Made by a program: the position numbers and the translations under genes
Shown: positions 10,984 through 58,386 of the stretch, one piece after another
Position numbering within the stretch: position 1 is the first letter of the stretch
How the letters are laid out: every line of letters begins with the position of its first letter
The notes under the pieces: model-generated
What the model saw: only the letters and a program-made list of their open reading frames with translations
The model's database searches: none
Told to the model about the DNA's origin: nothing
Assembly: GCA_025449115.1 (NCBI GenBank)
Contig: JAHLKC010000035.1
Span: forward strand, 1-64,000
Length of the DNA stretch: 64,000 nucleotides
Reading direction: 5' to 3'
From: Chytridium lagenaria
Taxonomy: Eukaryota > Chytridiomycota > Chytridiomycetes > Chytridiales > Chytridiaceae

Positions 10984-12674
10984 TCACCACCTCCCAATAG
11001 GCAAAAACTGTCCCACAACCACCCCAACACCACCCCAAGCATCCCTCCTCACACTCATCCAAAAAGCACAAGGCACCTCCCCTCCATCCTCCTTTACAAA
11101 CACACACCGTCCCCTAATCCCATCCCCCTCCACCCTCGCGCGACTAACACAAGTCCCCTTTTTCACTTCCACCTCTGTCTTCATCTCCCCGGTACACAAG
11201 GACGTGAACGCCTCCCAATATTCCACCACCGATTCCGCATCCCAAAGGTCAGTGATGAGGGTAGTGGATGTGAGCGGTGTAGGAACAAGTGTATCGAATC
11301 CAGCCCCAGCAGCAAGGATCTCACCCCCTTGTTCACCCCTCCAAACACACCAAGGAGTGCCAGAGTATTCCATCAACCTCGTGACATCTTGGACGCTTTT
11401 CCGAATCATGTATTCCTTGACCACGTGATCGCTTTCCGACATGTGCGTGGCGGCGGCGATGAGACGTGGTCGGAGGGTGGAGAGGGACCAGAGGAGACGA
11501 GCTTGATGCCAGCGTCCGAGACGCGTTTGGGTTGTGGTGAGGAGGTGTCTGTAGGCGCGGGTTTCGGGGATGAGGAGGTTGGGGATGGGGTGGAGAGGGT
11601 GCGGAGAGTGGAGAGGAGGGTTGGGTATGGGGTTGAGGCTGGGAGGGTGGTGAGGGTTTGGGAGAGGAGGGTTGGGGTTGGGGGGTTGGTGCGAGGGAAG
11701 GGGACGCAGGGTCGATAGGTCGTGTAGGTGATGAAACAGGGGTAGGGATGCGGATAGGTTCCGCGGGTTTAGGTTTTCGGCCACGTTTCTTTTTAAGGAC
11801 GTCGACGTCGTCACTCTCGTCATCGCTGGAACGAGAGCGTTTTTTGGATTTGTTGACGGAACCTTTTGGACGGCCTGGACGACGTTGGGGTTGGGATGTG
11901 GGGTTTGGGGTGTCGTCCAGGGAGAAGGTTGGGGAGGCCATATCAAAGGCCATGGCGAAGGGGTTGGTGGAGGGGAGGTTGAGATGGCTGAGGAGGGTGT
12001 TGAGAGGGCCGAGTCGAGGGTAGGGAGGTTGAGGTCGATCATGGAGAGGGTTGTGCCAAAAACATCGAGGGTTGGAGCAGTGTCGTGACGCATCTACATA
12101 ACACAAGAGGGTATTAATACTTTTGTTCGATGGAATTTGAAGAGAAATCACAACAAAAGGTAGTGATGGAAGGCTACCTGCGAGACGTCAGTTCGAAAGG
12201 CTTCAAGCTTTTCCTGCTGTTGACGAGATTGAAGGCCAAACCAAGCTTCCTCCATCCCTCCATCCGTTCCACATCGCGTTGACCTGACAACAGCCCCATG
12301 AATCCTTCCTCCTCTGTTGAGTTGCGTCGTTGCGCGAGAAGAGAGAACGGAGATGGATTGGATTTAGGCGGGGATGGGGATGTGGCGAGGTAGAGGTCCA
12401 TGTCGAGAGAGGTTTGGGATGGATCGGTGTGAAGGAGATGCATGAATTGAGAGAGGTCTGTTTGAGGTTGGAGAGAGCTGATGAAGGATGTGAGAGTAGA
12501 TGTGTCAATGTGGTTGGAGGTGGAGTTGTGGGAAGGGATGGTAATGCTGCGGTGGTGGGAGGAGGTGGTGTTGAAGCGGTGATGTTGTTGTTTGAGGGAG
12601 TGGCGCATGGAGAGGATGTCGCTGGTGGTGTTGTTTGGAATCATGGTGTCGTTGTGAGAGATAGGAACGACCAT
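10984..12674 (-). CDS. Putative transcription regulator with AT-hooks and an ERT1/RDS2-like PAS region
   Basis: Exon 1 12674-12178, intron, exon 2 12093-10984. The N-terminus is Ser/His/Gln-rich. The end of exon 1 reads as a coiled segment (LQSRQQQEKLEAFRTDVSQ) only after undoing an apparent 8-bp tandem duplication (GGATGGAG twice). The middle has two AT-hook-like motifs, RRPGRPKGSVNK and KKKRGRKPKP, then a long Pro-rich linker. The C-terminus has EYSGTPWCVWRGEQGGEIL, LWDAESVVEYWEAF and VVVGQFLPI, which resemble the PAS-type region of the fungal ERT1/RDS2/AcuK gluconeogenesis regulators. No Zn2Cys6 cluster is visible. The frame changes at least three times (exon 1 end, near 12000, and in the Pro-rich linker). 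The family call rests on pattern memory; a different PAS-like regulator is possible. Confidence 0.5.
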
Positions 12675-18140: not shown

Positions 18141-21120
18141 CCATCGTTGTTCTCGTGACAATAGACATGAAAATACTGTCACTCCCCTCGGTCAAAGGTT
18201 CGGTTGATGGGGTAGCATCGGTAGGTGGGGCTGGCCCGGAACGTGCATCACCGTCTTTGAGCGCTGTCAGGCTACCAGCAAGTGAGCCGGCCGAGTTTGT
18301 GGCGACCGTTTCTGTACTTCCAAGTAGTTCCGCTTTAGAATCGGCTTTACTACCAAGAGAGTCGTCGGAGCCTTGGAGATATTAAATACGAGTTTGTAAA
18401 GGTCCGAAGAAGGTTAAACTCACCGAGAAGCCCGATTGGAGATATCCCTTCGTTCATTAAAGATACCGCCACTGCCTGCTGCATTTCAGGCGGTTTCCCA
18501 ATAAGAGAATCGATAGAATCGGATATGGTTTCGACTATTTCAGAAGAAAAAAAAATTAGGAATAAATGTTACGTTCATGACCAAAAGTCAGATATCATTG
18601 TAGCTTACGGATAGGCTCGACAGAAAACGATTCTTCAGGTTTGGGTGTAGGTTTTTGTTGTATTGTGTCAGCTGCGGAATCGACCTTTGCTTCGAGGGGA
18701 ACTTCAGCCGGGGTTGGTTCAATAAGTGAACCCAAGGAAGGAGGGGCATCCGGCAAGGTGTCCGAATTCCCTATATCTAAAGAATCATCTCCATCTAGCC
18801 AAAGAGTGGATTAAAGGTAATAATAATTTAGTTAATGAAGGCATATATTCAACTTATTCAGCGACTCACCTTTTGTGGTGGTAATATCTTGAGTTGATCC
18901 CATCACATTTTGATCCACCGCCGTGCCCTCGAAGTCTCCTTCTTCAATCCTATAATGAAAAAAACACGTTCGTTTCAGTATATTGCTGTTACACATTTAT
19001 CGACAAAAAAAAAAGTAAGTAATTGAGCACACGGACCCTTTGCCATCGTCTCCATCTCCTCGTTTTGCCATTAAAACCCTCAACTTCTCCAGATTCCTCT
19101 TTGCGCTCACATTTCCTTGCTCCGCCGCTCTCTCAAACCACTTTAAAGCTTTTTCCCAGTCCCTCTCCACTCCAATTCCCAAAACATAACACCCGCCCAA
19201 ATTATTCCTCGCACTCGCATTTCCCGCCATAGCCGCTCTAGCAAACATCTTTGCCCGCAATCACCATATCCTTCTCTACGCCGATCCCGTTTTTATAGCA
19301 ATGACCGAGCCGGTTTGCGCACGGGTGCCCTTGCTTGCGGAAGATTCGTAGAGAGGAAGGCGGCTTGAGGATTTTTGGGAAGACCTGCGAGTCCGTGTTC
19401 GTGAAAATGTCCTAAATTATCTTGAGCGATGGGGTTCCCTTTATCAGCGGCCGGCGAAAAATTCCAGGGCTTGAGTAAGGTCGACGGCGGGACTCCCACA
19501 CCTGTCTCAAAGCACAAGCCAGCGTTGGCCATTAGCGGGAGGGTACCCCGCTTCCGCAGATTTCATGTACCATTCTACAGCTTTCAGGTGATCCTTTTCC
19601 ACACCAACACCATTTAGGTATAAGGTTCCTACAGCGTTTTGCGCTCTTGCGTCACCGCGTTTTGCAGCAGTCTCGTACAAGTTGAAAGCTTCTGTAGGAT
19701 TCTTCTCTGGTACTCCAATCCCACGTTCCAAACACTGGGCTAAACCGTACATGGCTGGTACACAGCCCCGTTTCGCTGCCTTACGGTAGACGGCAACGGC
19801 GGCGGCAGGGTTCTTTTCGACGCCGAGTCCTCCAAAAAGCATGTCGGCGACGCTATTCATCGCTGATACATTTCCCGAGTCGGCAGCGCGAGAATACATC
19901 AAAAAGGCTTTCTGGAGGTCGACGGGGGTACCTGTTCCATGGAAAAGAGCGTTGGCATAATTATGTTGAGCATTGGCATATCCTTGTTCCGCAGAAAGAC
20001 CATAGTGCAGAGCAGCTTTTGTGAGGTCGATAGGCGTCCCAACACCAGTTTTGAAACAATAGCCAAGGTTATTTTGAGCTTTAGGGTGGTTCTGCATTGA
20101 GGCCCAAGAGTAGAGACGGAAGGCCATGTCGGGGTCTTTTGGAATGGAGGCGACGCCGCGTTCGTAAAAGTATGCTACATCATTTTGTGCAGGTGCGTGA
20201 CCATTCTGCGAGGCAAGTTGGTGAAAGAGCTGTAATGCTTTTGTAAGATTGAGTTTACAACCTATTCCCTTTGACAGTTTGAGAGCCGCGTCATAGGTGG
20301 TGGATATGTCATTGCCAGTCGATCCGGAGCTATTGACGCAATCAGATTGAGAGTGGTAGTCGAATTTTTTTGAATGCTGATGAGAAGATAGTAGTGACTT
20401 GAGGCAATCGCCGACGCTAGACGCAAGGGAGTCACCGAGAGGCTCGTCTTTATCAAGGGCAAAGCGATGACATCGCCCAAGGAGTAGCGATGACCACATT
20501 GTCGCTTCCGGGCGACATCCATGAATCTCAATTGCCAGTCTCAGTTTGCCGTTATCATCAGCTTGCAAGAGGCTCGACGACAAAACTTTGATTCCTTTTT
20601 TTAATTCTGTTAATAATACTGTAGTATAAGAGCGAACTTAGTAAAGGGCCCTACCTCAAAATGGTCCGTCAAAACAACACAAATGGCAGAGTAGGCTCCT
20701 GTCGTTTTCGTTTCCTCCGCCACTCCTGCGCCCACCGAAACATCCCCTTGATCAGAAAAATCCCGTAAAGGTGCCTCCTCCCCAACATGCACTTTCAACC
20801 GAGAGACTGCAGCTTTTCCGTTAAAACAGGCCACACGATTCCAGTATCAAGTTGACTGCAAAGGATTTAGCAGATGATGAGCAAGAGAATGAGAATGCGA
20901 TGACGCTTACCTGCAGCATATGAAGATGTCGACAGCAGCCTGCTCCTTGCCGCCGTTGTCCATGACCATGCAGTTGAAGGAAGTTTTGAGGATGAAGGCG
21001 AAACGGAGATCGGAAGTGTTGCTGCCTGCACTGTTGCATGGTCTCTCGCCCTGGCACCGATCTCATCGCGCGGCAATCCTTATTTAGTGGCGAGAGATTC
21101 AGGGCAGAAAGGATTTTCAT
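18070..21120 (-). CDS. Sel1-repeat protein with acidic Ser/Pro tail
   Basis: Inferred exons: ~21120-20911, 20855-20655, 20594-19037, 18949-18870, 18794-18609, 18534-18424, 18371-18070. The large exon encodes about nine to ten Sel1/TPR-like repeats, e.g. AQNNLGYCFKTGVGTPIDLT and ARNNLGGCYVLGIGVERDWE. Such solenoids act as scaffolds for complexes, often in ER quality control, chitin-synthase activation or signalling; the partner here is unknown. The N-terminal ~150 residues (FILKTSFNCMVMDNGGKEQA) match nothing I recognise. The tail is rich in D, S, T and P. Frame breaks occur near 19530, 19380, 19250 and 20830, mostly single-base changes. The 5' start is uncertain. The 3' coding end overlaps the first exon of the LRR gene by about 70 bp in another frame. 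Confidence 0.65.
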
Positions 21121-22789: not shown

Positions 22790-23495
22790 TTCAAAGTTAA
22801 GTAACTATATTCCATGCAGTACCAGAGTAACAATTATAAGCTCTTATGATAATTAATGCAGAAATGGGGGCAGGTTTAGCTTTTCCCAATGCGAGATGAG
22901 CAAGGCCCTGTTTTAATGTATTCGAACAGAAGCTCTTGTCTATGCAAGCTCTCCACCTTTAAGCCTTCAATTGTTGTTGCATGCGCTTGTATCATATAGC
23001 TAGCTGTATCTCTTTAGTAATAAGCTCCGTCGAAATTCTGTGTCTATTTTGGACATTTTATTGACGGGACCTCCAATTCTGTTTTCCTGGTGATGTAAAA
23101 ATACAAATAATAGAACGAGTAGGAATACATCTAAAATCACAGTACAAAACAGGAGTGAAGCAGTTCAACTTTACTTCCAATGCAGCAAGATACTCAGTAA
23201 TATATAAATATGCAGGCATTTGTAGTTTAGAAGAAAGCATAAACAATTGAAACGAATATTGGAATAAAAAAAAAAGAAAAGTAGTGATTCAAACCAGAAA
23301 CAGGATGAAGCGGGTGGAACAACAGAAAAAAGAAACGTATTTTCAAAAATATGATAAAAATGCCCTGACAAAGCGCGACGTAAACAAACTTTAAAATATG
23401 TCCTTAGAATCAAAGGAAAGACATCGTTACGGACAGGCCTATAACAAGCTACTCCGATAACTTTTGCATTAAGTTTTCAATCTTCACCGCCACCA
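22790..23495. other. Intergenic, AT-rich
   Basis: About 700 bp downstream of the NACHT-WD40 gene. No feature supported. Confidence 0.4.
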
Positions 23496-26400
23496 TCAAC
23501 CCCCCGACACAAACCGCACAACCTTCGCATCTGTCGACAACCTTCTATCTCTTGTAACAGGCACTGGCGGTTGCAAATTCACTGTCCCTTTCAAGACCCA
23601 GCTCTCCCATTGAAAGAACCTACACTCCATCCCCCACCCACAAAGCACAACAATGCTCTCTGTCATAAATCCTACAGCAGGTGCAGTCTGCCTTATCGAG
23701 GACAGCATCCCGCCTGTTTCTACATCCCACACTCTCACTGTCCCATCAAGACCCGCCGAAACAATCTTTGCCCCACTTGGCGAAAACATCACCGCCATCA
23801 CATCTTTCTCATGTCCCTCAAATACCCTCTCACACTTCCCCGTCGCAACGTCCCAAACCCTCACACTTAAATCCATAGACCCAGAAACAGCCTTTGTACC
23901 ATCCCTCGACGTCCCCACCGCCTTGACCCAATTCTCATGCCCCTCAAAGGTCATCTTACAAACACCATTCGAACTATTCCACAACTTTATCGTCTTATCC
24001 CAAGACCCAGACAGAATCCACTTCCATCATCCGAAAACTCCAACGCAGATACCTTACTCCTATGACTCCCCTTCATCTTTATCGTCTTCCCACTCCCCGA
24101 ATCCATAACAAATATCTCCCCTCTCTTTTCATCAAACGCCCACGCTCGTTTCTTCGCATCCCCCAAACCGCCCCCGAGAACAATTTCCGTGTACCTGTGT
24201 TCCCATCATCACTCTGCATCATATCCCATATAAGAATATGTCGGTCGTAGGCAGCTGACACGAGTCTCGTCCCATCTGGAGATATCGACACATCATTCAC
24301 TCCAAATGAATGCCCTTCGAAAACACGCTCAATCTTTCCATTATCAACATCCCATACGAATACATTTGTATCCATAGAGCACGTAATCAGCTTCCCACCG
24401 TCCCCTGAGAACACCACAGAAGCAATCGACCCAGCATGACCCTTGAACATCACGCTAGGCTTCTCAATATAAAGAATTTCTTCCTGTCCCTTCTGAGCAT
24501 CAGACAACTTCCATAACTTCGAGGTCTTGTCCCTTCCACCTGACACAAACCTCACCCCATCCGGCGCAAAAGCCACACATCACTTTATCCCCATGTTTGG
24601 CAACAAGTTCACACTTCCCCGTCTCCAAGTCCCAAACTCTCACCTCCCCTCCAAAACACCCCGTCACAACCTTCCTCCCATCTGGCGACACCCCCACCGC
24701 CTTCACAAACTCCCGATGTCCCTCCAACAATTTTTCAAAAGCACCTGTCTTTGCATCAAAAACTTTCACAACCCCCTCCTCAGACCCAGTGATGATTTTG
24801 CTCCCGCATCTCGAGAACACAACCCCTCGCCCGCGACACTCTATCGAAACGATAGGACTTCCTGACACAATGTCCCGAATTTCCATCCGCTCCTTCGACG
24901 CAACAGCAATACTCCCTCCATCCGGGTGAAAGGCCATAGCGGTTATATCAACGCCTGTAAATTTCTTTTCTAATGCAAACGATGCAGAATCCCATACAAT
25001 AATCCCCTCGTCTGACGCTGAAACAATGCTTTTGCCATCAGGTGAATACATGACGCTAATTACGGACGACGAATGACCTTTAAGAACAGAGAGATACGCG
25101 TCCCAGTGGGTCACGCCTGCAAGAACAGTGGGGATTGGGAGAAGAGGGGTTATGAGTGGAAGGTATGTTGAATAGAGGAGGGTGGAGGTTGGGGTGAAGG
25201 GGAGGGCAGACTGGTAGATTTGCAGAGCGGAGGCTTCGATGGAGGTAAAGTTTGCTTGAAGGAGGCGATAGAGGTCGTCCCAGAGTTGGAGATAGCGGGG
25301 AGAATTGAAAGTATGGCGGACTGTTCTAACCATTGACGACAAAGCGGTATGGCTTCAACACCGATGCGGAGGTTGCCAACAAGTGAAAGAACTTCGAGCC
25401 ACGACAGTAATTTCTTTTCCGTTATCTCTGAAATTAACTGGAAGAGGAAACAGCTTAAAAATACTGCCTTCAGAGCAAACATTTCTTACCTGCTTCACAC
25501 TTTTAATATCATCTTCTAGAATCTCAGCTCTCATAAGATGCGTCACCCAATGCTTAGCACTATAACCCACCTCCTCTCCAACACCCGCCCTCACCTTCTC
25601 CTCAAACTCCGCAATATTCCTATGCTGTTCACAAGGCATCTTCAACCCACACATATTCACTTGAACCTCCCCGCACACTTTCCTTAAACACGCAATTCCA
25701 ATCTCCCAATGCGCCTTTCCCCTCTCAATACGCCCACTTTCGTCCAAAAAATCCGCAACCGTTTTATGTCGAAACGCTACAAGTCTAACCCCATCAGCGC
25801 TCACAAAGCGATGCACAACGGTTGTTAAACAAGTTAATGCGAGTTCAACGGCATCCAAGTCTAAATTTAATAATTTAGCGATAGCAACCCCGCTCAATTG
25901 TTCCTCTGCACATGTCAACACGTTCACTATAGAAGTGCCAACCCCTCCATCCAATTTTTGAAGTCTCTCAAACACGTCCTCGTAAATCCTCGTCTCATTT
26001 ACAACCATATCTTTAACTATTTCAACATTTATAGCCTTCAATTTCGATTCCTCCGCAAGCCGTTCAACGGCTAACACAATCCTTAAAAACAACCCATCAC
26101 TTTTCTCCACAACGATACGTGCGATTTCCTCAACATCATCAGGGTTCTCTATCATCGCCTCTCGTTTTAATCGATTCGTGACGCATATCCTTCCATCACT
26201 TAAATTCCGTTCATGACTCGTGCTTAAGACACGTGTCGGGATCCCAGAAACCTCAAATGCCTCAACGATGTCCGGCTCTGGCCGACCTGTCACGAACACC
26301 TTTACGAATTTCGGCAACCCCCCGCAATCTTGTGTTAACACATCTAAAAACGGTCTCCGTTTCCCCATCGCCCCGCATTCATCCAAAGCGTCGACGACAA

Positions 26401-28341
26401 TAACGCAGTACTTTAAGTGTGTGAGGCGTTTTTCGAGACGAAGAAGGGGTTCAAGGATGAGGGATTTGAAAATGACATTGTTGGGTTCTTGAAGAAGGTT
26501 TGGGTTGGACGCTTGGACCGTGAGGAGATCGCGACCTAGGGAGACGTCCCATTGGGACAGACCGTAGGCGATAGTGGTGATGAGGGAGCGAGGTGTGTTG
26601 CGTTGGTTGTTGTTGTAGCGGCAGAAGAAAGTGGTGCCAAGACGGTTTCGGCCGAGGAGTTCACTAGCCACAACTGCGGCCATTATAGACTGTATAAATA
26701 GCGGGAGCAATTGCGATTTTTAGCCTCATAGTATAATATTTTGAGAACAAAGGAGAAAGAGCGCTATCGCGAAGCGGCCCAGAAAGAATGTTTACAAATA
26801 AAAAAATATATAGTAATAGAAATATAAGTATCTCCACAAAAAACCCTCTTACCTTCCCAACTCCAGCATCCCCTCTCAACCACATAACTCTGGACGCTTC
26901 GGTATCAACGGCCCAATTCACCACATCCTCCAATAGCCACTGCCTTGTGCCCTCAGCATGACGAGACTCCAACAATCTTCTTTCCGAATCCATCGCCTCT
27001 GTCACAGGAGACAACCAATGTCTCAAAATATCATCCTCGCTGGTTGTTAACCGAATAGTATCAGTGATGGATTGGGGGTCGGGCGTCGCGGATGGGATGG
27101 TTTCATCTTTCATAGAGGGTAAGGATGGTGAATAGTACTGAATTACTACCTTTTGTAGATAAAGATTCTTTAAATTTCTCGTAAACGGCCATAATCTCGG
27201 GTATATAACTATACGAAAAACGAAATTTAAATCTCTTGCGCAAGAACAACAAATGCAGAAAAAAAGGAAAGGAGCACCTACACTTTAACATTATCATTAA
27301 CACGAACCGCTTGTAAATGAAATACATTTTTCATCGTTTCTCTAACCGTTCGTACACGCGGGCTTCTTGGATGCGCATGGTAAGAATCCGGGAACTGATC
27401 GACTCCGAAAGCATTGAACTTTCGAATTACATCGCCCTCAACTCTCGACAAGAGCAGCGGAAGAACGTCAGCTTTTCCTTTCTCCATTTGATCAAGAGCA
27501 AGTTCCCACTACAAAAATAAAAAACCGACAAGGCTTTTCAGTCAAACCCATATTATAAAAGCATTCGAATCATCATACCTCCAAAAGCATATTATCCGCA
27601 AACTCACTCGCCCTCTTCACATTCTCAATCCCCTCATCTGAACACAACAGCAAGACAACATTTGATCTCATTAACCCATTCAAAAAACCATCCCCCCATT
27701 TTTGTCCCGGAACGAGGCAATCCTGATCAAGGTATGCATGCAAGTGCGGTCTAGCAGCAACCAGCAATTTCAATATTGAGCAGTGACCGCTTCAGTTTTG
27801 ACTCGATAGCTTGAGAGTGGGATTAATTCAAAATGACTGGTTATAAGAATGCAAACCTGATGAAAAAGTCATGAGCGATGGTGCTTTCATTACAACACCA
27901 GTTTTCTTCTAGAATAATCTTTTCTGTCTCTTTCAATTAAAGTGTTTAGATAAAAAGAATGAGGGCCAACAGGGGACTCACCAGGTTGCTCATCTACTCC
28001 GTCTTTACAGCGGCCACAATCTCCTCACCTTCACACCAGCAGTATTACTCATAACACTCGGTACAACTACCACAGGAGTCGGTCGGGTAGCTACTGCATT
28101 CGCTTTTAGATGGGCAATGATCAACCTCGCATGTCCAATCTTGACATTACACTCCCTCAGATCCTCAAACGTCGCAGCGGCGTGCAGCTAAGAAAAAGCA
28201 GTGCGAAAGAACAGCTTTAGAAATAGGTATCTACGGGAGGATCCTTACGGCATCGAGGGTATCAAAACCATTTTCTTCGAGGTCCGTGAGGTATTGCGTG
28301 AGATTGAGCTTCTCGAGGAGAGCCGTCGCTGCTGGGTCCAT
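23496..28341 (-). CDS. SAM-TIR-NACHT-WD40 NLR-like protein
   Basis: Inferred exons: 28341-28249, 28187-27982, 27908-27857, 27809-27579, 27508-27284, 27195-27150, 27106-26853, 26689-25490, 25437-23496; about 1,400 residues. Exons 1-2: a SAM-like domain ([36 protein letters not shown]). Exons 3-5: TIR, with [42 protein letters not shown] (holding the probable catalytic Glu of NADase-type TIRs) and [11 protein letters not shown]. Exons 6-8: NACHT, with Walker A GDAGVGK|S split by an intron, Walker [12 protein letters not shown], then a winged-helix part ([13 protein letters not shown]). Exon 9: 11-12 WD40 blades ([20 protein letters not shown]). Splice phases join cleanly if two G are missing in exon 2 and one A in exon 4; exon 9 has about four more shifts. 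Expected role: ligand sensing by WD40, NACHT oligomerisation, TIR signalling, probably cytosolic. The SAM and TIR exons lie 73 bp apart with a good intron, so I favour one gene. Confidence 0.75.
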
Positions 28342-28849
28342 TACACCAGCAAATTAAATGAGTTGACGTTGTTGCACATGAATAACAAAACCCCTACAGA
28401 AGACACACAATATCTCCCGAATGCTGGGCTGCGATGCGATGCCGTAGCGATGCCCACTTTGCCCTTACGCGACCAGGAATTACGTCTCTTGAAAAGAAAC
28501 AGCGCTGGAAAGTCCATTTATATTTCGCGTGATTTCATGTGTGTATGATCAAAAGTTGCGTTGAATGACCATAAAATGTTCCTCACACCTCCTTCTCATG
28601 GTCGATGGTCAACGAACAGTCGGAAATGAACGCTAGAGTTATCTTCTCTTCACTTATATCCCGCGTATCTATTAAACCATGTATGTATGTTTTACGGAAC
28701 AGGTGGTGAGAGAGAGTGAGAGATGGAAGATCGTGGCAGAGTCAAAGGTTGAGTGATATCACTGGAAATTAATCCCTGACACTTAAAAAGACGCCTTTCC
28801 TTTACTATATTCCTCTCCATCCTTCAATCCTCAACTGTAGAGTCCTAAA
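28342..28849. promoter_or_regulatory. Divergent intergenic region (NLR / GST-like)
   Basis: About 500 bp between the first NLR exon (-) and the GST-like gene (+); both promoters are expected here. No specific motif can be supported. Confidence 0.3.
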
Positions 28850-29607
28850 ATGACCATCATTCTTTACGACATCATTTACACCGACGACCCCATCAACTCC
28901 ACCTTCTACGCCTCTCCAAACCCGTGGAAAGTCCGGCTCTCCCTTCTTCACAAAAAAGTCACCTTCACAACCACCCCGTGACCCTCCTCGACATCGCCAC
29001 AACCCTCACCGAGCGCAAAGGCAGCAAAGCCACTGGTCCCTCCATTGAACTGGTAGACGGCACGATCTTGTCCGACTCCTTCCGTATCGCAGAGTACTTG
29101 GAGGAGACTTACCTGATGCTCCATCATTGTTCACAGGCTCATTGAGCAACTCCCGGGAGTTGGTGACGCTGGAAAAGCGTATTCTAGATTGGTGGATCTA
29201 GGCTTAGGAGCTTCAGGCCCGCAATGGGGTTTGGTTTGACATCATCTTCCCCTCCCTTCAACGCCTCACACCTCCTGGTCCCAACTGGACCCATTCGTTT
29301 TCCGACGCAATGCTCGCTCCAACAGGCTACGAAGCCCATCTCACGCGACCTGAACGCGAGGACCTGATGACCGTGCTAAACTCAACATGGTCCCGCTGGC
29401 GACCATATTAAAGGATTCAAATGTTTTTGCAGGGATCGATGACCTGGGTTTGCGGACTTTGTGGTCTTTGGACGATAATGCGATGACGAGAAACTGTGCG
29501 CCAGAGATGTTAGAGAATTATGGGAAGACCAAGGGATGGAGGAGTGGGTGGCGAGGATGCTGGAGAGGTATCCCGAAGTGAAACCGTTTTTACGGGAGTT
29601 GAAGTGA
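28850..29607 (+). CDS. Glutathione S-transferase-like protein
   Basis: ATG 28850 begins a thioredoxin-fold start (TIILYDIIY, FYASPNPWKVRLSLLHKK), continuing after a missing base at about 28980 into ATGPSIELVDGTILSDSFRI and AEYLEETY, the usual GST N-domain ending where glutathione is bound. The C-domain is readable in pieces: SNSRELVTLEKRILDWW, WFDIIFPSLQRL, then EWVARMLERYPEVKPFLREL to the stop at 29605-29607. There are at least three frame changes, and a stop-containing patch near 29200 could be a short intron or errors. Total size (~245 residues) fits fungal GSTs. Likely cytosolic; substrate unknown. Divergent from the NLR gene. Confidence 0.6.
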
Positions 29608-33803: not shown

Positions 33804-36800
33804 TCACACAGGTCCACCCCGATACACCCCCTGCCCCATCTCCATCTCAACCCCCATCCCCCGATACCCACCCTGTCCAAACCCACTCCCTCCCAAAACC
33901 GTTCGATAAGTAAACCCCTGCTGCTGCTGCTGTCCAACCCCAACTCCACCAACCCCAACCCCAACTCCACCATGTCCAACTCCCCCAACCCCAGCCCCCC
34001 AACCCCATGCCCACCAACCCCCCCAAACCCCCCCTCACCTCCCCCACCAAACAATGCACCTTCTTCCCCTCCGCCACAGCCTTCTCATGCCGTCTCAACG
34101 CATCTCGTCTCGCAAACCCTTTACCGCATCGTGGACACGGGTATGGCTTTTCCCGGGAATGGATGTAGTAGTGACGTTTGAGGTCTGGATAATAAAAGGG
34201 TGGGAGGGTTAAGAAGCGTTGATGGAATAAACGGGGGTATTGGTGTGAAATAACCCAAAGAAAAAAAAAAAACGTCGCATAAAAAAACAAAAAGAGAATA
34301 CAGGAAAAATAGATTTAGAAAAAAAAAAAGAGAAATGGAGGTAGGGGACAAGGGTGCTGGATTGAATAAACGGGGAACATTGGTGCGGAATACCCCGAAA
34401 AAAGAATTAAAAAATACCTCAAAAAACAAAACTAAAAACAAAGGACAGCGGAAAAATATACGAAAAAGGAAACGCCAAAAACCAAACACACCAAAAAAAA
34501 AAAACGCAAAACTCACCATGACTCCTACTAAACGTCTGCGGACACCTCAAACACCTAAACGGTTTCGCCTTCCCACCCGGCGTCACCCCCAACTCCCCCT
34601 CCCCCCCTCCCCCATGTTCCGCAACCAAATGCGCATGCAAATCCTCCACATCCGCAAACCGTTTCCCACACCCCTTTGCAATACACACCTCCTCATCTGC
34701 CGGAGACCGTGGCGGGGACGCCGGGGTGGCGTTAGCCGACGACGACGGGGTTGGGGACGGATGATGCGGGGCAGTGGGGAGGGGTTCGGGGATGGCGGCT
34801 TTTTAGGGATGCGGGGGAGGAGGGGACGGGTTTGATGTGCGGGGTGAGGGTGGAAGGAGGTTTGGGGGAAAGGGGGGTGATGGGGGAAGGGTTGGGGGTA
34901 GGGTTGAGGTGATTGTTGTGATAGGATGTATTGATGTTGAGGTGGAGATGGATTTGGGTAGGCAAAGTGTTGTTGGGGGTGTTGTTGTGGGTGATGTAGA
35001 GTGTACGCGTTCTGTTGGCCCATTACCATACCGTTTTGCATGTAAACGTGTTGTTGTTGTGGTTGTTGAGGTACCATCTGCTGGTGCTGCGGTTGTTGAT
35101 GCATTATCTGCTGGTGTTGTGGTTGTTGAGGTACCATCTGCTGGTGTTGTGGTTGTTGATGCACCATCTGTTGGTGCGGCGGCTGTTGATGCACCATCGA
35201 CGGGTGCTGCGGTTGTTGATGCACCATCGACGGGTGCTGCGAAATCATCTGCTGCGGTGGATAATGGTGTTGAGGGTGTTGATACGGCGGTGTCTGCATC
35301 TGCTGATTCTGAAAGGTCTGTTGAGGTTGCATATACGGTTGTTGCTGTTGGATATGTTGTGGGAGTGGCAGAGGTGGTGGCATATGAACCAACACCTGAT
35401 GCTGCTGTTGCTGTTGCGGAAGGGGTGGGGGTGGCATATGAACCAACACCTGCTGCTGCTGCTGTTGCGGCGTCGGTGGCGGTGGTGGCAGCGGGGCCAT
35501 CATCTGCGGTGGTCCCATCACATGATACCCAGAACCAGCAGCCCCCTGTCCATCATACCGTCCAACATGTTGTCCTTGACCATTGTGCAATACTTGTGGT
35601 GGCATAGCATGAACCTGTTGCGGCGACTGTTGTTGTTGAACCAAAACCATCCCCGCCCCAACACTCGGACTTCCCTGCTGCTGCATTCCATACCCCTGCT
35701 GCACCCCCACCATCCCAGCTCCAACACTCGGACTCCCCTGCTGCTGCTGTTGTTGCACCAAAACCATCCCCGCACCAACACTCGGACTCCCCTGCTGCTG
35801 CATTCCATACCCCTGCTGCACCCCCACCATCCCAGCTCCAACACTCGGACTCCCCTGCTGCTGCTGCTGTTGAACCAAAACCATCCCAGCCCCAACCCTC
35901 GGACTCCCCTGCTGCTGTTGTATTTGCATTGCATGAACCTGTTGCTGCTGCACCATCCCCGCTCCAACACTCGGACTCCCCTGCTGCGGCTGCACATGCA
36001 TCATATGCGCCTGCTGCATCCCCCCCATCCCAGCTCCAACACTCAGACTCCCCCGCTCCTGCATTCCATACCCCTGCTGCTGCAACTGCATCCCCATCCC
36101 CGCCTCACCACCCAAACTCTCCATCCCCATCCCATACCCCTGCTCCCCTCCATCCCATACCCCTGCTCCCCCTCCATCCCATACCCCTGCTCCCCCTCCA
36201 TCCCCATCCCATACCCCTCCTCCTCCACCTGCACATACCCCTCCATCCCCATCCCATACCCCCCCCTCCCCTCCTCCTCCATCGCATAAACCTGCTGCAA
36301 CGACTCCCCCATCCGCATCTCATACCCCTGCATCACCCCCCCTCTCCCCCCAACCCCAAACCCAATCCCATCATCCCCTCTCAAATCCCTCCCCAAATCC
36401 CACTGCACCCCCCCGTACCATCCCCTAAAAACTCCCACCCCCAACCTCCAACACAAGCATATCATCACGATACACAACTCCCCGCTCCTCACTCACACCC
36501 CCAACCCCCTCCAACCCACACCTAAACCCATCCCAAATCTCCTCCACAACACAATCCCTCATCCCCAACATCGCCTCCCCCCCACGTCCACTCACAAAAG
36601 CACCAGAAAGCGGTTCCATCGCTTCCTCTGCGAAAAAAAACCCAAACCCTCCCAACGTTGGTGTCATTTGAGGCGTGCTTCGAAGGGGGTCCGTCGATGG
36701 CTCGCGTTTGCGTTTCAGTGCGTTGAGAGCAGGGAAGGGGGAGGTGGGGGTGGGTCCGTCAAATGTAAAGAGGAGGGGGGTGGGGGAGGCGAGGAGAGGG

Positions 36801-39800
36801 GTTGCTGGGGGGAACATGGGGAGGGGTGGTGGGTGGGAGTCGGGAGGGGGTTCGGCGGCGGGGGGGAGGACGGCGGGAGAGTGTTGATGGGCATTGTCTT
36901 TTTGTAAAAAAAAAAAAAGGAGAAAGAAGGAATGAGAATGCGTTTAATCGAGAAAAAAAGGGTGAAAGAAATGTAAAGAAGAAAAATAAAGTGTATGATG
37001 TATTTATAGCGGGAACGAAAATAAAAAAAGTATATGGCAAAAAAAAAAAAAAAAAAAAAAAAACCGAGAGAGAAGCGATCGCCATTCATATTAAAATAAA
37101 ATAAAAAAGAGTGAAAGAGGAACAACAATAAAAACAACCAAAAACAAAAGAAAGAGTTCAACTTACCATTCACCTCCTCATCCTTCCCACCCTTCTTCAC
37201 AACTTCCCCACCAAGTCCCTTCTTCTCTCCCTCTCCTTCATCCGCAGGCGTAACCATCACCGTCCCACTCAAAGCATCCTCCTTTCCCCATCCCACGTCC
37301 ATCTCCCCCCCCCGTTCCTTTTCGCATCTATCAAGTTCCTTATCCCCCTCCACCTCCAAACCACGCTTTAGAATCGACAAAGCAGGTCCAGTTGGCGTCA
37401 AAAACCCTCCTCCGCCCACCCACCCTTTCTTCTCTTCATCAGCAGGCGTCACCCTCACCGTCACACTCAAAGCATCCTCCTTTTCCCGTCCCACGTCCAT
37501 CTCTCCCCCCCGTTCCTTTTCGCATCTATCAAGTTCTTTATCACCCTCCACGTCCAAACCACGCTTTAGAATCGACAAAGCAGGTACAGTTGGCGTCAAA
37601 AACCCTCCGCCCACCCACCCTTTCTTCTCTTCATCCGCAGGCGTCACCGTCACCGTCACAATCGAAGCATCCTCCTTTTCCCGTCCCACGTCCATCTCTC
37701 CCCCCCGTTCCTTTTCGCATCTATCAAGTTCCTTATCCCCCTCCACCTCCAAACCACGCTTTAGAATCGACAAAGCAGGTCAGTTGGCGTCAAAAACCCT
37801 CCTCCGCCCACCCACCCCTTCTTCTCTTCATCCGCAGGCGTCACCCTCACCGTCCCACTCAAGCATCCTCCTTTTCCCATCCCACGTCCATCTCCCCCCG
37901 TTCCTTTTCGCATCTATCAAGTTCCTTATCCCCCTCCACCTCCAAACCACGCTTTAGAATCGACAAAGCAGGTCCAGTTGGCGTCAAAAACCCTCCTCCG
38001 CCCACCCACCCCTTCTTCTCTTCATCCGCAGGCGTCACCTCACCGTCACACTCAAAGCATCCTCCTTTTCCCATCCCACGTCCATCTCTCCCCCCGTTCC
38101 TTTTCGCATCTATCAAGTTCCTTATCCCCCTCCACCTCCAAACCACGCTTTAGAATCGACAAAGCAGGTACAGTTGGCGTCAAAACCCCTCCTCCGCCCA
38201 CCCATCCCTTCTTCTCTTCATCCGCAGGCGTCACCCTCACCGTCCCACTCAAAGCATACTCCTTTTCCCGTCCCATATCCATCTCTCCCCCCCGTTCCTT
38301 TTCTCTATCAAGTTCCTTATCACCCTCCACCTCCAAACCACGCTTTAGAATCGACAAAGCAGGTCCAGTTGGCGTCAAAAACCCTCCTCCGCCCACCCAC
38401 CCCTTCTTCTCTTCATCCGCAGGCGTCACCCTACCGTCACACTCAAAGCATCCTCCTTTTTCCCATCCCACGTCATCTCTCCCCCCCGTTCCTTTTCGCA
38501 TCTATCAAGTTCCTTATCCCCCTCCACCTCCAAACCACGCTTTAGAATCGACAAAGCAGGTCCAGTTGGCGTCAAAAACCCTCCTCCGCCCACCCATCCC
38601 TTCTTCTCTTCATCAGCAGGCGTCACCCTCACCGTCCCACTCAAAGCATCCTCCTTTTCCTGTCCCACGTCCATCTCTCCCCCCCGTTCCTTTTCACATT
38701 CTCTATCAAGTTCCTTATCCCCCTCCACCTCCAAACCACGCTTTAGAATAGACAAAGCAGGTCCAGTTGGCGTCAAAAACCCTCCTCCGCCCACCCACCC
38801 CTTCTTCTCTTCATCAGCAGGCGTCACCCTCACCGTCCCACTCAAAGCATCCTCCTTTTCCCGTCCCACGTCCATCTCTCCCCCCCGTTCCTTTTCGCTA
38901 TCAAGTTCCTTATCCCCCTCCACCTCCAAACCACGCTTTGGAATAGACGAAGCAGGTACAGTTGGCGTCAAAACCCCTCCTCCGCCCACCCATCCCTTCT
39001 CTCTTCATCAGCAGGCGTCACCATCACCGTCACAATCGAAGCATACTCCTTTCCCGTCCCACGTCCATCTCTCCCCCCGTTCCTTTTCGCATTCTCTATC
39101 AAGTTCCTTATCACCCTCCACCTCCAAACCACGCTTTGGAATAGACGAAGCAGGTATGGTAGGCGTTAAAAATCCTCCTTCGCTTGCCCGCCCATACGCA
39201 TCACCCACTCTTCCATTCACATCACCCACTCTTCCATGCGCATCAACAGCCTTTCCATCACCCACTCTCCATTCGCCTCAACAGCTTTTCCATCACCCAC
39301 TCTCCCAATACCCTCATTCCCCCTCAAATACCCATAACCCCAAAACGACGCCGCCAACCCCGTCGGCGTCCTCGGCACCGCCCCCAACCCAGTGGGCGTC
39401 CTCGGCACCGCCCCCAACCCAGTGGGCGTCCTCGCACCGCCCCCAACCCAGTAGGAGTTCTCGGCACCCCCCCCAACCCAGTAGAGTCCTCGGCAACCTC
39501 GGAGAAAACGGCAAATCCCGAGCCGACAAAGGGGCAAGAGGATCATCATCCAAGGTCTGGAGATGGGAGAGCAGGGCACACCCAAGGATTTCTCAAAGAG
39601 GGTTGCAGAGGGGGAGGCAGAGGATGGACCTGATGAGGAGGAGGGGAAGAAGAGGGGGAGGAAGGGTTGTGGAGCGGGGGAAGGGGAGGAGGTGGGGACG
39701 GTGGTGGAGGGGGGTTTGGGACGGTAAGAGGTTGGATGGCGTGTGGAGGTGGAGGGAGGGAGGGGGAGGGGAAGAGAGGGGATGCGGGTGGTTGGTGTTG

Positions 39801-40674
39801 GTGTGATGTGATGTGGAGGTGCGAGGATAAAAAGAGGGGACGGCGAATGTGGGTACGGGTGGTTTCTTGTAGAGTGATGAAGATGGTGGTGGCTCTGTCA
39901 AGGATGGTGATGATGATGATGACGACGATGACGATGCTGCTGTTAGTGATGATGCAGCTGCAAAAGAGGTAATAGCGGCTTTTGGTGGTGAAGCTATTGC
40001 TGCTTAATATATAAAGATGGATAGTGTGAGAAACGGATTGAAGATAAACAACAAGATAAAAGGCATGCAATGGATAAAAGAAAAAGAAAGGCTTGCAGTG
40101 AGAGACAATAATGGGTCGTTGAGCATTTCGCAAGAGAGAGAGAGAGAGACTCACCAGTGATGTCTGCATTGGCTTCATCTGTTGGAGAGGCACAGAGAGA
40201 AGTGACAGAGGAGGAGGAGGAGGACTTGAAGAAGGAAGCATCCACGATAGCATTGGCAGTAGAGACGGAAGAAGAAGGTGATGGAATGGACAATGGAGTG
40301 ACAATGGCCAGAGAGGGTCTCCGAGAGGGTGTCCGAGAAGGTCTTTTCACTAGAGTAGGAGTAGGAGTAGTAGGAGGTATGGAAGGTATGGAAGGTATGG
40401 AAGGTGATAAAGTAGTAGAAGTAGAAGTAGAAGAAGAAGGAGGATGAGGATGATGATGCTGATGTGATGACGTGTTGTTACTGATGATGCTGCAGTCATG
40501 TTGATGCAGAGGAGGAGCAGTCATTGTATTTGATGCAGCAGTAGCAGTAGTAGTAGTCATAATAGTATTTGATGTAGTATCATCATCAACACTCATACTA
40601 CTCATAGTATCAGTAGTAGCATTTCTAGTAGTATCAGTAGTACTCATACCACTAATACCACTACTACTACTCAT
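33804..40674 (-). CDS. Giant repeat-rich, Q-rich C2H2 zinc-finger factor
   Basis: Inferred exons: 40674-40155, 39993-37167, 36897-34517, 34184-33804; about 2,000 residues. Exon 1 is Ser/Thr-rich with basic sites (KRPSRTPSRRPSLAIVTPLS). Exon 2 has low-complexity sequence, a PRTPTGLGAV repeat (about 39360-39490) and ten ~66-residue repeats (ALSILKRGLEVEGDKELDR ... DEEKKGW ... GFLTPTGP). Exon 3 has ALNALKRKREPS, then Q-rich arrays (QGSPSVGAGMV; HQQMVPQQPQ). Three C2H2 fingers end the protein: CIAKGCGKRFADVEDLHAHL, RCLRCPQTFSRSH|DLKRH split by the last intron, and CPRCGKGFARRDALRRH. The exon 2/3 junction is phase 1 and runs straight into the downstream frame (NDNAHQHSP), so I merge what looks like two genes. 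Several one-base shifts occur. Nuclear DNA-binding regulator; fingers resemble fungal Ace2/Swi5-type factors only generally. Confidence 0.7.
35080..36290 (-). repeat. Nested coding repeats in the Q-rich region
   Basis: Three repeat families inside exon 3 of the zinc-finger gene: ~30-bp units encoding MVHQQPQHQQ (35080-35235), ~60-65-bp units encoding QQGSPSVGAGMV(L/G)VQQ (35640-36060), and 24-33-bp units encoding GYGMEGEQ/GYGMGMEG (36115-36270). Repetition is strong at DNA level, which suggests recent slippage or unequal exchange. Confidence 0.8.
37039..37063. repeat. Poly-A run in intron
   Basis: 25 consecutive A within intron 2 of the zinc-finger gene (36898-37166). On the coding strand this is a T run about 140 bases upstream of the acceptor. 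Confidence 0.9.
37190..39180 (-). repeat. Ten ~198-bp coding tandem repeats
   Basis: The marker 'caggt(c/a)' after 'gacaaag'/'gacgaag' occurs at 37383, 37581, 37776, 37969, 38165, 38360, 38557, 38758, 38953 and 39151, so periods are 193-201 bp around 198. Each unit encodes about 66 residues. Copies are nearly identical; several lengths are not multiples of three because of single-base differences in homopolymers. Confidence 0.92.
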
Positions 40675-54985: not shown

Positions 54986-57900
54986 TCACCTAATCAACGG
55001 CTCTTGAAAGCCTCCATATCCCAATGCATCACAATTCGGTAGCAAGCGACTAGGATCGTCAAACTTAAAAAAAGAAAATTAGAAAATTCAGCACAGTACG
55101 CAAAAAAATAAAATGAAAGACTATACAAAAAAGTTGGGTATAACATTTTTAAGGAAAGAAAAACAAGCGTTCCACCTCATGCACCGCCAAGGTCTGATGT
55201 CCCCCCGCTTCGTCTCCACTTCAACTTGAGCAATAACCTCCCTCCTTTCTCAACATCCTCCGAATACACAAACGGCTCCTTGCCTCCCTCTACTTCACCT
55301 CCTCCTTCACAGGCACAACCGCCGCACCGAAGCAACAGCGCACAGCGCCGCAACCGGTGCACTCGGGCAGCAGCAGGCGCACAGGTGCACTCCCCGGCGA
55401 ATTCCACGTCGCCCACCACCGACTCTCGCAGCCGCAGCACCAACACTACCAAACCTCCTCCAGGCAATGTTGGCCTCTGGGTCTCGGGCGTCGTTGGCGT
55501 CGAAGGAGTCTGCGCAGCAACTCGCCCATTCTGTTGCTTGTTGTCCAGCACTCCATCCGGCACCCGCACAGTCTGATCCCCGAATTCGATGTCGGGTTGC
55601 CCCTCCAAATCCAGAATTGAGTTATTAGCAGAATTAAACCCTGATGTGAAGTTGTTGTTGGCATTTGCGTTAGTTACAGGCCATCCCGCATTCGACGATG
55701 GAGCCGCGCCGTGTTCCATACCCTCCGAACGAAGGTGGCGTAAACCCAGAGTTCGTGTTTGACGGTGACGAAAACGGTGCAGGCGTAGCAGCAGGCGTCG
55801 CTGCCCAAGGATCCGCAGGTTTTGCTGTAGTCGAGGAGGCACCAGGTTTCGCCCAAGGGTCCACAAACCCACCAGCAGGTGCAGGAGGAGCAGGCGCCGG
55901 AGTTGTCGTGGTCGACCCACCATTCCAAACGGCAGGATCAGCACCCCAAGGTGCAGCGACCACAGTTGGCTTAACAGCTCCCCAAGCATCCCCGCCCTCA
56001 GTGGTAGCTCCTTCAGCTGCAGCGGTAGCCGCAGCAGCAGGTCCGGAAATTGATCCAGCTCTCGACCGTCGCCGACCAGACGCGATCAAAATGGTCGCTT
56101 TCTCGCCATCAGAACCTTCGGTAGATGACTGGACGGCAGCGGCAGCAGCAGCAGCGTCTTTCGAGGAGACCGAGTTGGAGCGTGCAGCACGACCAGAGAA
56201 CAGAAGAATCTTGTCTTCGGGAGCAGGGGCAGCAGCGGGGGTTGAAGTAGCAGGGGCAGGAGCGACGGGAGCAGCAGCGGGAGTTGCGGAGTGGCGAGAA
56301 CTGAGCTCGGCGCGATTCCAACAGGAGTAGACCAACCGCCTGAAGCAGGCGGTGGGGTAGGTTGCGTAAAACTCATCTTCCTTCTCGGCGCCTCAGCAGG
56401 GGTGGCAGCGGCAGCAGACGCCACAGGTGCAGCTCCAATCCACGAAGCATTGGCACTGGGTCCCTTTGGTTGAACAGGCGTAGCGACGGATGCTGTAGAA
56501 GGCACGAACTCCGATGCCTTCAAACTCAGATTGCTCGTCTTTCTTCGAAGACCCGGAGAAGGTGAGGTTGCGGTGGAGGGAGGTGGGGAGAAGGGGTTAG
56601 ACGAGGGAGATGAGGCGGTGGATGAGTGGAATGATTTGGATGCGGAGGACGAGGCGGCAGAAAGGTGAGCGGCAGTAGGTGGTGCAACCTTCAAACCCTT
56701 AGCAGCAGCAGCAATGACAAACGCAGCTTTGGCAGCGGCATCATCACCCGACATTGGGGACGACTGAATCAAAGGTGGCGCGGCAGCTTCAACAGGAGAC
56801 GAAACGGGTGCTTCACTTTCTCCAAGGACACTTCTCGGGGGTTCAACGTTATTGGACGACCCAAAGTCGGGAGGGGAAGGTGGGGAATCAAATCCAGCAA
56901 GGAGACTGGACCTATCCACACTCAAGCCCCGCGACCGCCGCCTCTCCCTGATCCTTTCTTGCCTCTCATACCTCGCGGCCTCCTCCACCTCTGAGCTATC
57001 ATCCTCCGTATTCTTGATCGAGAGATTTAATAAACTACGACGATGACGAAGTGTCCTCGAGGGGCGGCGTTGAAGACCAGGCGAAGTGGCACCTTCACTA
57101 CCCAGCCCACCGGCTTCACTCGTGACAGGCTTGGCCTCTCCGTTCGGTCCAAGCATGCTTCGCATCACAGCAGCAGCAAACCCAGCATTTGCCTTCCGTC
57201 TCTTCCGGTCGTCCGCGAAATCAGAGGCATACTCTACCTCAACCTTGAGTCCAGATGCCGCCGAATCGTCAGGCTTGCGTCCAGGTGACGAAGGAGAGTG
57301 GCCAAAGCGCCAGGGTTATGATCAGCAAGCGACCGAAGTTGATCAGCGTTCAAAGTACACTCGAGCGCATCATCTCCCTTAAGCAATGCATGCTTGTGCA
57401 CAAACGATCCCAAATCTTGTCACATCCATCAAGCACAAGTAACTGCATCCCACTGCTCTCTGCACCATCTGATGGACAGCTGGAGGGGTGATTAGATCAC
57501 ACGCGCAAAGGTAAGTTCCTCAAGGCTTCCACCTCGAGGCTCCTCCTCCGCACGCGCCGTAATGGCTTGATAGAGGCATCCGTAATCTGCTCTAAGAATG
57601 AGCAATCGAGCGATCGAAGCTTGTTGCAGTGCTTCATGATGGCAATGATGGAGGCGTCCGTGATGCGTTGACAGGACTCAAGGACAAGCACCTCTAAATC
57701 GGGGCACTGCGAGACGGCAAAAGTGAGGAGTTCGTCCGTGATGGAGTGTTTCGAAGGTTAAGACTCTTGAGTGGGCGACGGAATCCCCTTGGGGTCAAAT
57801 CCAACATTTGCAAATCCTCAGCTTCCTGACACTCAGACAAATCCAGCTCGAGAAGAGATTCGGAATACTCCATGACGGGATGGATCGATGCGACCGTAGC

Positions 57901-58386
57901 GTTTGTAAAGGAAACGTCGAGTCGAAGGAGACGCTGGCACTTTTTTACCAAGATCGGGATGAAAGAATCTGAGACGGGGCAACCAGGAAGATCCAATTGC
58001 AAAAGACCGGGGCAATGATGAGCAATCGATTTCAACAAAATGTTGGAAATGTGGAAGCAGTTTTCAAGACGGAAAACTTCGAGGTTGGGACACATGCCCA
58101 GCGCGGCATCGAGATCTCCCATGTAAAGGTTGTCGGCGGCCATGCCCGAGATGTCCAGCTCGCGAATCATGGTAGGGTAAGGGTGGGCAGGAAGGGGAGT
58201 GTTGAGGAGTCCCATGAGGCGTTCAAAAGAATCTGGGGATTGAAGAGGTGGTGCACGGTACATCGCTTGAGCTACAGTTTTAGACCAACCCTTGCAGACC
58301 AACATCAAAGAAACATGATCGGCATGCTCCGTGACGTAGTCAACAATGTTTGCAAGCACGCGGAGCGGAAGGTTCGAGACACTCAT
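54986..58386 (-). CDS. F-box/LRR protein with long Ala/Ser/Pro-rich tail
   Basis: Exons 58386-55176 and 55063-54986, about 1,080 residues. F-box at the start (SNLPLRVLANIVDYVTEHAD, then MLVCKGWSKTVAQAMY). Then AMN1/GRR1-type Cys-containing LRRs (CPNLEVFRLENCFHISNILL; CPGLLQLDLPGC; LDLSECQEAEDL; CPDLEVLVLESCQRITDASI). This architecture predicts a Skp1-binding SCF substrate receptor. The frame passes via SLADHNPGALATLLRHLDAS into a disordered region with basic RRRSRGLSVDRSS and two DPW motifs (VDPWAKPG, ADPWAATP), as used to bind clathrin adaptors. The C-terminus (LLLKLK..VETKRGD, then LAVHE|FDDPSRLLP across the last intron) looks like a small conserved beta-rich end. Five or so single-base shifts. 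Confidence 0.7.

Follow-up and report, generated by a model that had tools for sequence, protein, structure and literature searches.

What does a chytrid fungus encode where a SAM and a TIR domain, the pairing known from the animal NADase SARM1, precede a NACHT-WD40 body? The question is raised by a minus-strand locus in the window, i.e. the 64,000-nucleotide stretch of contig JAHLKC010000035.1 of Chytridium lagenaria (Chytridiomycota, Chytridiales) analyzed here. From 28341 to about 23449, SAM, TIR, NPHP3_N/NACHT and about 12 WD40 blades are encoded one after the other, in the order and on the strand that had been proposed from the DNA letters alone (the initial annotation). SAM_2, TIR_2, NPHP3_N and WD40 all reach their curated Pfam cut-offs, by which chance similarity is ruled out. 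The four-domain architecture is real and recurs, and the combination appears to be new within a known kind of receptor. It is probable that the product is an intracellular receptor of the NOD-like receptor (NLR) type, which would assemble on activation and cleave NAD+ by means of its TIR domain.

Four domains in one gene

In Pfam scans of the translated pieces, SAM_2 scores 22.6 bits on exons 1 and 2 (cut-off 20.5). The profile search of the TIR region called for by the initial annotation yields 30.8 bits for TIR_2 on the joined exons 4 and 5 (cut-off 28); exon 4 alone stays below the cut-off with 18.0 bits and exon 5 alone gives no TIR_2 match. Profile match and predicted fold agree in placing this domain in the TIR superfamily. 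NPHP3_N, a P-loop family taken as a stand-in for NACHT, scores 20.8 bits, short of its cut-off of 24.8, on the exon with Walker A, whereas the following exon reaches 56.4 bits; Walker A and Walker B are both complete, as in a P-loop NTPase of the NACHT kind. The C-terminal superstructure-forming repeats of fungal NLRs and STAND NTPases are present as well: three of the four pieces scanned from the WD40 region match WD40 with 85.8, 93.9 and 96.9 bits (4, 3 and 3 stretches counted), and the remaining small piece, 23987-24205, has no WD40 match. The earlier count of 11-12 blades agrees with the approximately 12 counted by eye. An Rfam scan of the window gave nothing above thresholds.

The deposited model of the gene (P0001; BC829DRAFT_432357, 1139 residues, NPHP3_N 94.9 bits) starts inside the TIR domain and lacks the SAM, and the splice model of the linker between SAM and TIR is uncertain. 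Both would be expected if the SAM and the TIR-NACHT-WD40 portion were two adjacent genes mimicking one. However, the paralogue on contig C8, P0002, joins them in a single predicted protein of 1364 residues with all four domains (SAM_1 33.4 bits, TIR_2 32.4 bits, WD40 matched, NPHP3_N in the precomputed domain list). It is identical to the window protein in 30 of 62 SAM positions (48%) and in 564 of 1284 positions of the remainder (44%), and intron places match within the SAM, in the linker and after HDFFIS, MLLE and GDAGVGK. The predicted model of P0002 omits the Walker B stretch, although it is encoded in the DNA. Since P0002 is one protein with matching intron places, the linkage of SAM and TIR in one gene is real; the same order is moreover found again at a locus on contig C76 and in three other species, so that two separate genes are hardly credible.

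The C76 locus comprises a SAM-like piece, TIR, NACHT and WD40; its SAM-like piece has no Pfam SAM match and is assigned by its similarity to P0017 and P0016 from Phlyctochytrium. Among nine NPHP3_N matches in the genome, the top three loci are those on C76, C35 (the window contig) and C8. Ten further TIR places were located in the genome, with a SAM at two of them (C8 and C76) and none seen at the other eight. A whole-genome scan with Pfam TIR (PF01582) found no match, perhaps owing to the short exons, and PADLOC matched P0002 in the WD40 region only.

Gene model and frame breaks

The gene model consists of nine exons separated by short introns that start with GT and end with AG. All domains had been described as joined by phase-compatible introns; the GT..AG introns are indeed found, but in at least six places the frame changes where no intron would fit (near 27780 in TIR helix A, and near 25310, 24555, 24170, 24020 and 23500). 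Of the originally proposed span, 28341-23496, the start is kept, whereas the end lies nearer to 23449 if the last of these breaks is an assembly error.

With at least six breaks within approximately 4.3 kb of coding sequence and a deposited model that is a fragment, the window copy might be taken for a pseudogene, the decayed member of a family whose working genes would be the paralogue on C8 and others. Frame breaks of the same kind are, however, found outside this gene as well. In the HSP70 genes of the same genome, used as a control, five frame changes too tight for an intron occur in five of seven loci (29 of 32 matches used; the three omitted overlap others in, or sit inside, the first C12 locus). 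Two near-identical HSP70 regions on contigs C47 and C250, which probably represent either two haplotypes or a contig duplication, are 99.2% identical over 3375 columns and differ almost only by small indels, with 3 mismatches as opposed to 14 gaps (24 bases), 11 of which comprise a single base. Relative to P0017, six frame changes of this type are seen in the receptor locus on C76, and the GST-like gene adjoining the window receptor gene (window 28849-29581, plus strand; GST_N_2 19.6 bits in one frame, below the cut-off of 25) is also broken as judged by eye. Furthermore, the window gene retains the TIR Glu, Walker A and Walker B, and its protein branch is short. The HSP70 breaks and the C47/C250 indels make assembly errors the most likely cause of the frame breaks, rather than decay, and the gene is therefore probably intact in the organism. 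On these grounds, together with the C76 breaks and the short branch, decay was rejected as the main explanation and is considered quite improbable.

Exons and the first two introns of the receptor gene (window coordinates)
Feature	Position	Strand	Content and evidence
Exon 1	28249..28341	-	Start Met and first half of SAM; translation; SAM_2 22.6 bits over exons 1 and 2; SAM 48% identical to P0002
Intron 1	28188..28248	-	GT..AG, within SAM; position shared with paralogue L011
Exon 2	28029..28187	-	Second half of SAM and linker; SAM_2 match and translation
Intron 2	27919..28028	-	In linker; borders uncertain; small linker intron in paralogue too
Exon 3	27857..27918	-	Last part of linker, then TIR strand A (HDFFIS)
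Exon 4	27579..27809	-	TIR from helix A through helix C; frame broken near 27780; final codon (27581-27579) encodes the Glu that aligns with SARM1 E642
Exon 5	27282..27508	-	Remaining TIR, starting WELALD; TIR_2 30.8 bits with exon 4
Exon 6	27150..27208	-	TIR-NACHT linker; agrees with deposited model P0001
Exon 7	26853..27106	-	Start of NACHT, Walker A (GDAGVGK); NPHP3_N 20.8 bits
Exon 8	25490..26689	-	NACHT with Walker B and helical part; NPHP3_N 56.4 bits
Exon 9	23449..25437	-	Helical part and ~12 WD40 blades; WD40 85.8, 93.9, 96.9 bits; breaks near 25310, 24555, 24170, 24020, 23500

Elsewhere in the window are found an ERT1/acuK-type PAS domain (10984-12093, minus strand, 33.9 bits), Sel1 repeats (19507-20637, minus strand, 177.5 bits), an extended array of nearly identical repeats that is open in several reading frames (36715-39806) and a weak F-box-like domain (57694-58434, minus strand, 21.7 bits, below the cut-off).

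TIR and SAM domains and their distribution in chytrids

SARM1 ranks first among the solved TIR structures, both by sequence and by predicted fold, in line with the resemblance assumed in the initial annotation. The first Glu of LLEWE (E246 in P0002), a motif in which an active-site Glu had been suspected there, aligns with SARM1 E642, and counterparts of SARM1 R569 and D594 are aligned as well. All 17 rows of an alignment of hand-chosen chytrid TIR domains (which does not include P0011, P0012, P0013, P0021, P0003's second TIR or proteins found later) have the Glu, and so, by eye, do nine of nine proteins from a separate set. A scan of prokaryote genomes with a single alignment-derived pattern, a weak test, returned no relative, and NCBIfam gave no more than a weak match for P0024 and none for P0032.

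The predicted SAM fold of P0002 consists of five helices with pLDDT values of approximately 90-97. A search of PDB sequences with the SAM profile found 53 entries, 51 of which we take to be SAM proteins, in part by name; 1doq is not one and the name of 2eam is uninformative. The closest solved relatives are the SAM domains of Caskin, Eph receptors and ANKS proteins, and an origin specifically from the SARM1 SAM is not supported. Thus, of the suggested SARM1 pairing, the presence of both domains and the SARM1-like TIR stand, but the SAM is nearer to other families, and the pairing may consequently be convergent with that of SARM1.

Of the 15 proteins returned by one homology search, 13 are chytrid and the other two come from Mycena and Trichoderma; another search returned nine, all presumably chytrid as judged from their genus names. 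A SAM-TIR profile search, in which the best 8000 candidates were scored, gave 13 matches, and all seven with a species label are chytrid, one of them flagged by the source as unverified contamination. A SAM-like start is found in P0002, in P0003 and P0012 from Chytriomyces hyalinus (P0012 by eye) and in P0016 and P0017 from Phlyctochytrium. SAM_1 reaches 20.3 bits in C. hyalinus and 18.3 bits in P0016, both below the cut-off of 23, and the Pfam scan gave no SAM match for the piece from P0017, so that the calls in these two genera rest partly on alignment by eye. The four-domain order, which the initial annotation had suggested looking for in chytrid proteins, recurs in the two paralogues and in Chytriomyces and Phlyctochytrium, with weaker SAM scores in all of these but P0002. 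On a tree of 19 rows the SAM label requires two changes; seven of 16 inner branches are open, and the SAM may also have a single origin. P0003 (HDU78_009105) carries a second SAM-TIR at its C-terminal end (residues ~1400-1695; SAM_1 18.4 and TIR_2 27.3 bits, both below cut-off) and may represent two fused gene models.

A beta-grasp-like domain forms the start of several other chytrid TIR-NLRs, and still others have neither SAM nor beta-grasp. PB1 scores 19.5 bits in P0022 and 15.0 bits in P0007, both below the cut-off, and six of the ten N-termini scanned gave no match; the predicted fold of P0022 has the right order of strands and helices and no clear preference for PB1. Within C. lagenaria, L015 (C17:150000-159900) and L017 (C300:1-9500) hold TIR genes, in tandem in L015, with a beta-grasp or PB1-like start (PB1 12.1 and 15.3 bits on two L015 pieces, below cut-off), followed by a repeated unit of approximately 70 residues, of which one was scanned without a convincing Pfam match. 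Related TIR genes at L013, L014 (C6) and L018 (C62) have, by eye, a coiled-coil-like start and leucine-rich-repeat (LRR)-like repeats after the TIR; the one LRR-like piece scanned with Pfam has no LRR match.

Proposed function and relation to known systems

The reading as an NLR-type receptor is based on the domain order and its recurrence, the SARM1-like predicted TIR fold, the conserved Glu and the Walker A and B motifs; oligomerization, NAD+ cleavage, ligand and biological outcome we infer as follows. The WD40 propeller would most likely sense the trigger, and the NACHT domain would switch with nucleotide and oligomerize, bringing the N-terminal SAM and TIR domains together. SAM-SAM contacts may order or stabilize the assembly, and the clustered TIR domains would cleave NAD+ through the conserved Glu. 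The cell could die as a result, or a second messenger could be formed, and either would serve defence or the recognition of non-self.

Several observations weigh against this reading, beginning with the gene being broken as assembled. SARM1 W638, the Trp of WxxxE, is replaced by Asn in 17 of 17 rows (in the set of nine proteins by Ser in P0028 and by Gly in P0030), and most or all of the rows have other residues at the positions of R570 and E599, so that chemistry and product of the TIR domain may differ from those of SARM1. This Trp, four residues before the Glu, is found in SARM1 and plant TIRs and is not universal in bacterial TIR-like enzymes. The SAM belongs to a general type, and its role may be to bind a partner and not to polymerize. 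Finally, the WD40 repeats of the window gene are divergent, with a mean identity of 0.30 and a top pair at 0.50 (7 pattern-picked repeats of the ~12 blades). The highly similar, homogenized repeats of the Podospora hnwd genes, described as strongly conserved in a passage of PMC12881547, are not found here, and fast receptor diversification is for this reason not supported for the window gene. P0012 from C. hyalinus has a mean WD40 identity of 0.66 (11 repeats picked), far above that of the window gene and as expected of fast-changing recognition repeats.

The missing counterparts of W638, R570 and E599 would also suit a TIR domain that acts as a scaffold or recruiter of other TIR proteins and does not itself cleave NAD+, as the animal MAL and MyD88 TIRs do, and partners would be available, given the ten further TIR places in the genome and the short chytrid TIR proteins. 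We regard such a role as unlikely; the mechanism we consider most likely is NAD+ cleavage by a SAM-bearing NLR. A non-immune role of an NLR-like switch, for instance in zoospore or sporangium development or stress, would suit the divergent WD40 repeats, which show no hint of fast sensor change. However, what is established for the NACHT-WD40 and TIR families speaks for cell death and the recognition of non-self, and the chytrid TIR genes are many and varied, which renders this role rather improbable.

The receptor as favored here resembles SARM1/TIR-1, the animal NADase with the order ARM-SAM-SAM-TIR, in that a SAM precedes a TIR domain for which SARM1 ranks best, with the counterparts of E642, R569 and D594 in place. 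It differs in having one SAM, not closest to that of SARM1, a NACHT-WD40 body after the TIR and Asn for the Trp of WxxxE, and Pfam scans of the window gene and P0002 gave no ARM match, unlike the SARM1 family order. Plant TIR-NB-LRR receptors (RPP1, ROQ1, RUN1) have NB-ARC and LRR where the chytrid protein has NACHT and WD40, and they lack a SAM. With the fungal NACHT-WD40 NLRs (HET-E/HET-D/HET-R, hnwd) the protein shares the NACHT and WD40 body and a TIR-related N-terminal effector, HET being a remote TIR relative according to passages of PMC4986451 and PMC10197012; here, however, a TIR_2-type TIR and a SAM take the place of HET and the WD40 repeats are not homogenized.

TIR-NLRs of Chytridiomycota have already been reported (PMC9815663). 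They share the TIR within an NLR and the phylum, and probably belong to the same broad family; SAM and the four-domain order are absent from the passage concerned. The same source places SAM_Ste50p, a different SAM family, at the N-termini of fungal NLRs and names SARM1 for comparison, and the passage gives no fungal SAM-TIR. The initial annotation took this exact four-domain order to be undescribed in fungi. No description of SAM-TIR-NACHT-WD40 was found in the portions of the open-licence literature (preprints excluded) covered, but chytrid TIR-NLRs as such were in print.

A further, tentative idea, which we hold possible though doubtful, is that chytrids built a SARM1-like NADase receptor, in which a SAM-TIR unit with a chemistry similar to that of animal SARM1 has a NACHT-WD40 switch in place of the ARM lock. 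The slot before the TIR would be filled by exchangeable assembly domains, either SAM (Chytridium, Chytriomyces, Phlyctochytrium) or a ubiquitin-like beta-grasp, perhaps PB1 (several other genera and other Chytridium TIR genes). If so, polymer-driven clustering of TIR domains would be a principle shared widely among the TIR receptors of early fungi.

Taken together, the sequence suggests that receptors which destroy NAD may be in use in early fungi, too. Should the TIR domain prove to cleave NAD+, the depletion of NAD by NLRs that is known from plants and bacteria would reach the early-branching fungi, and would do so in a SAM-bearing protein. The family would then be a test case for SAM-TIR having arisen twice, in animals and in chytrids, as opposed to an older origin, and would allow a comparison of TIR switches between the ARM lock of SARM1, the NB-ARC-LRR of plants and the NACHT-WD40 of the chytrid.
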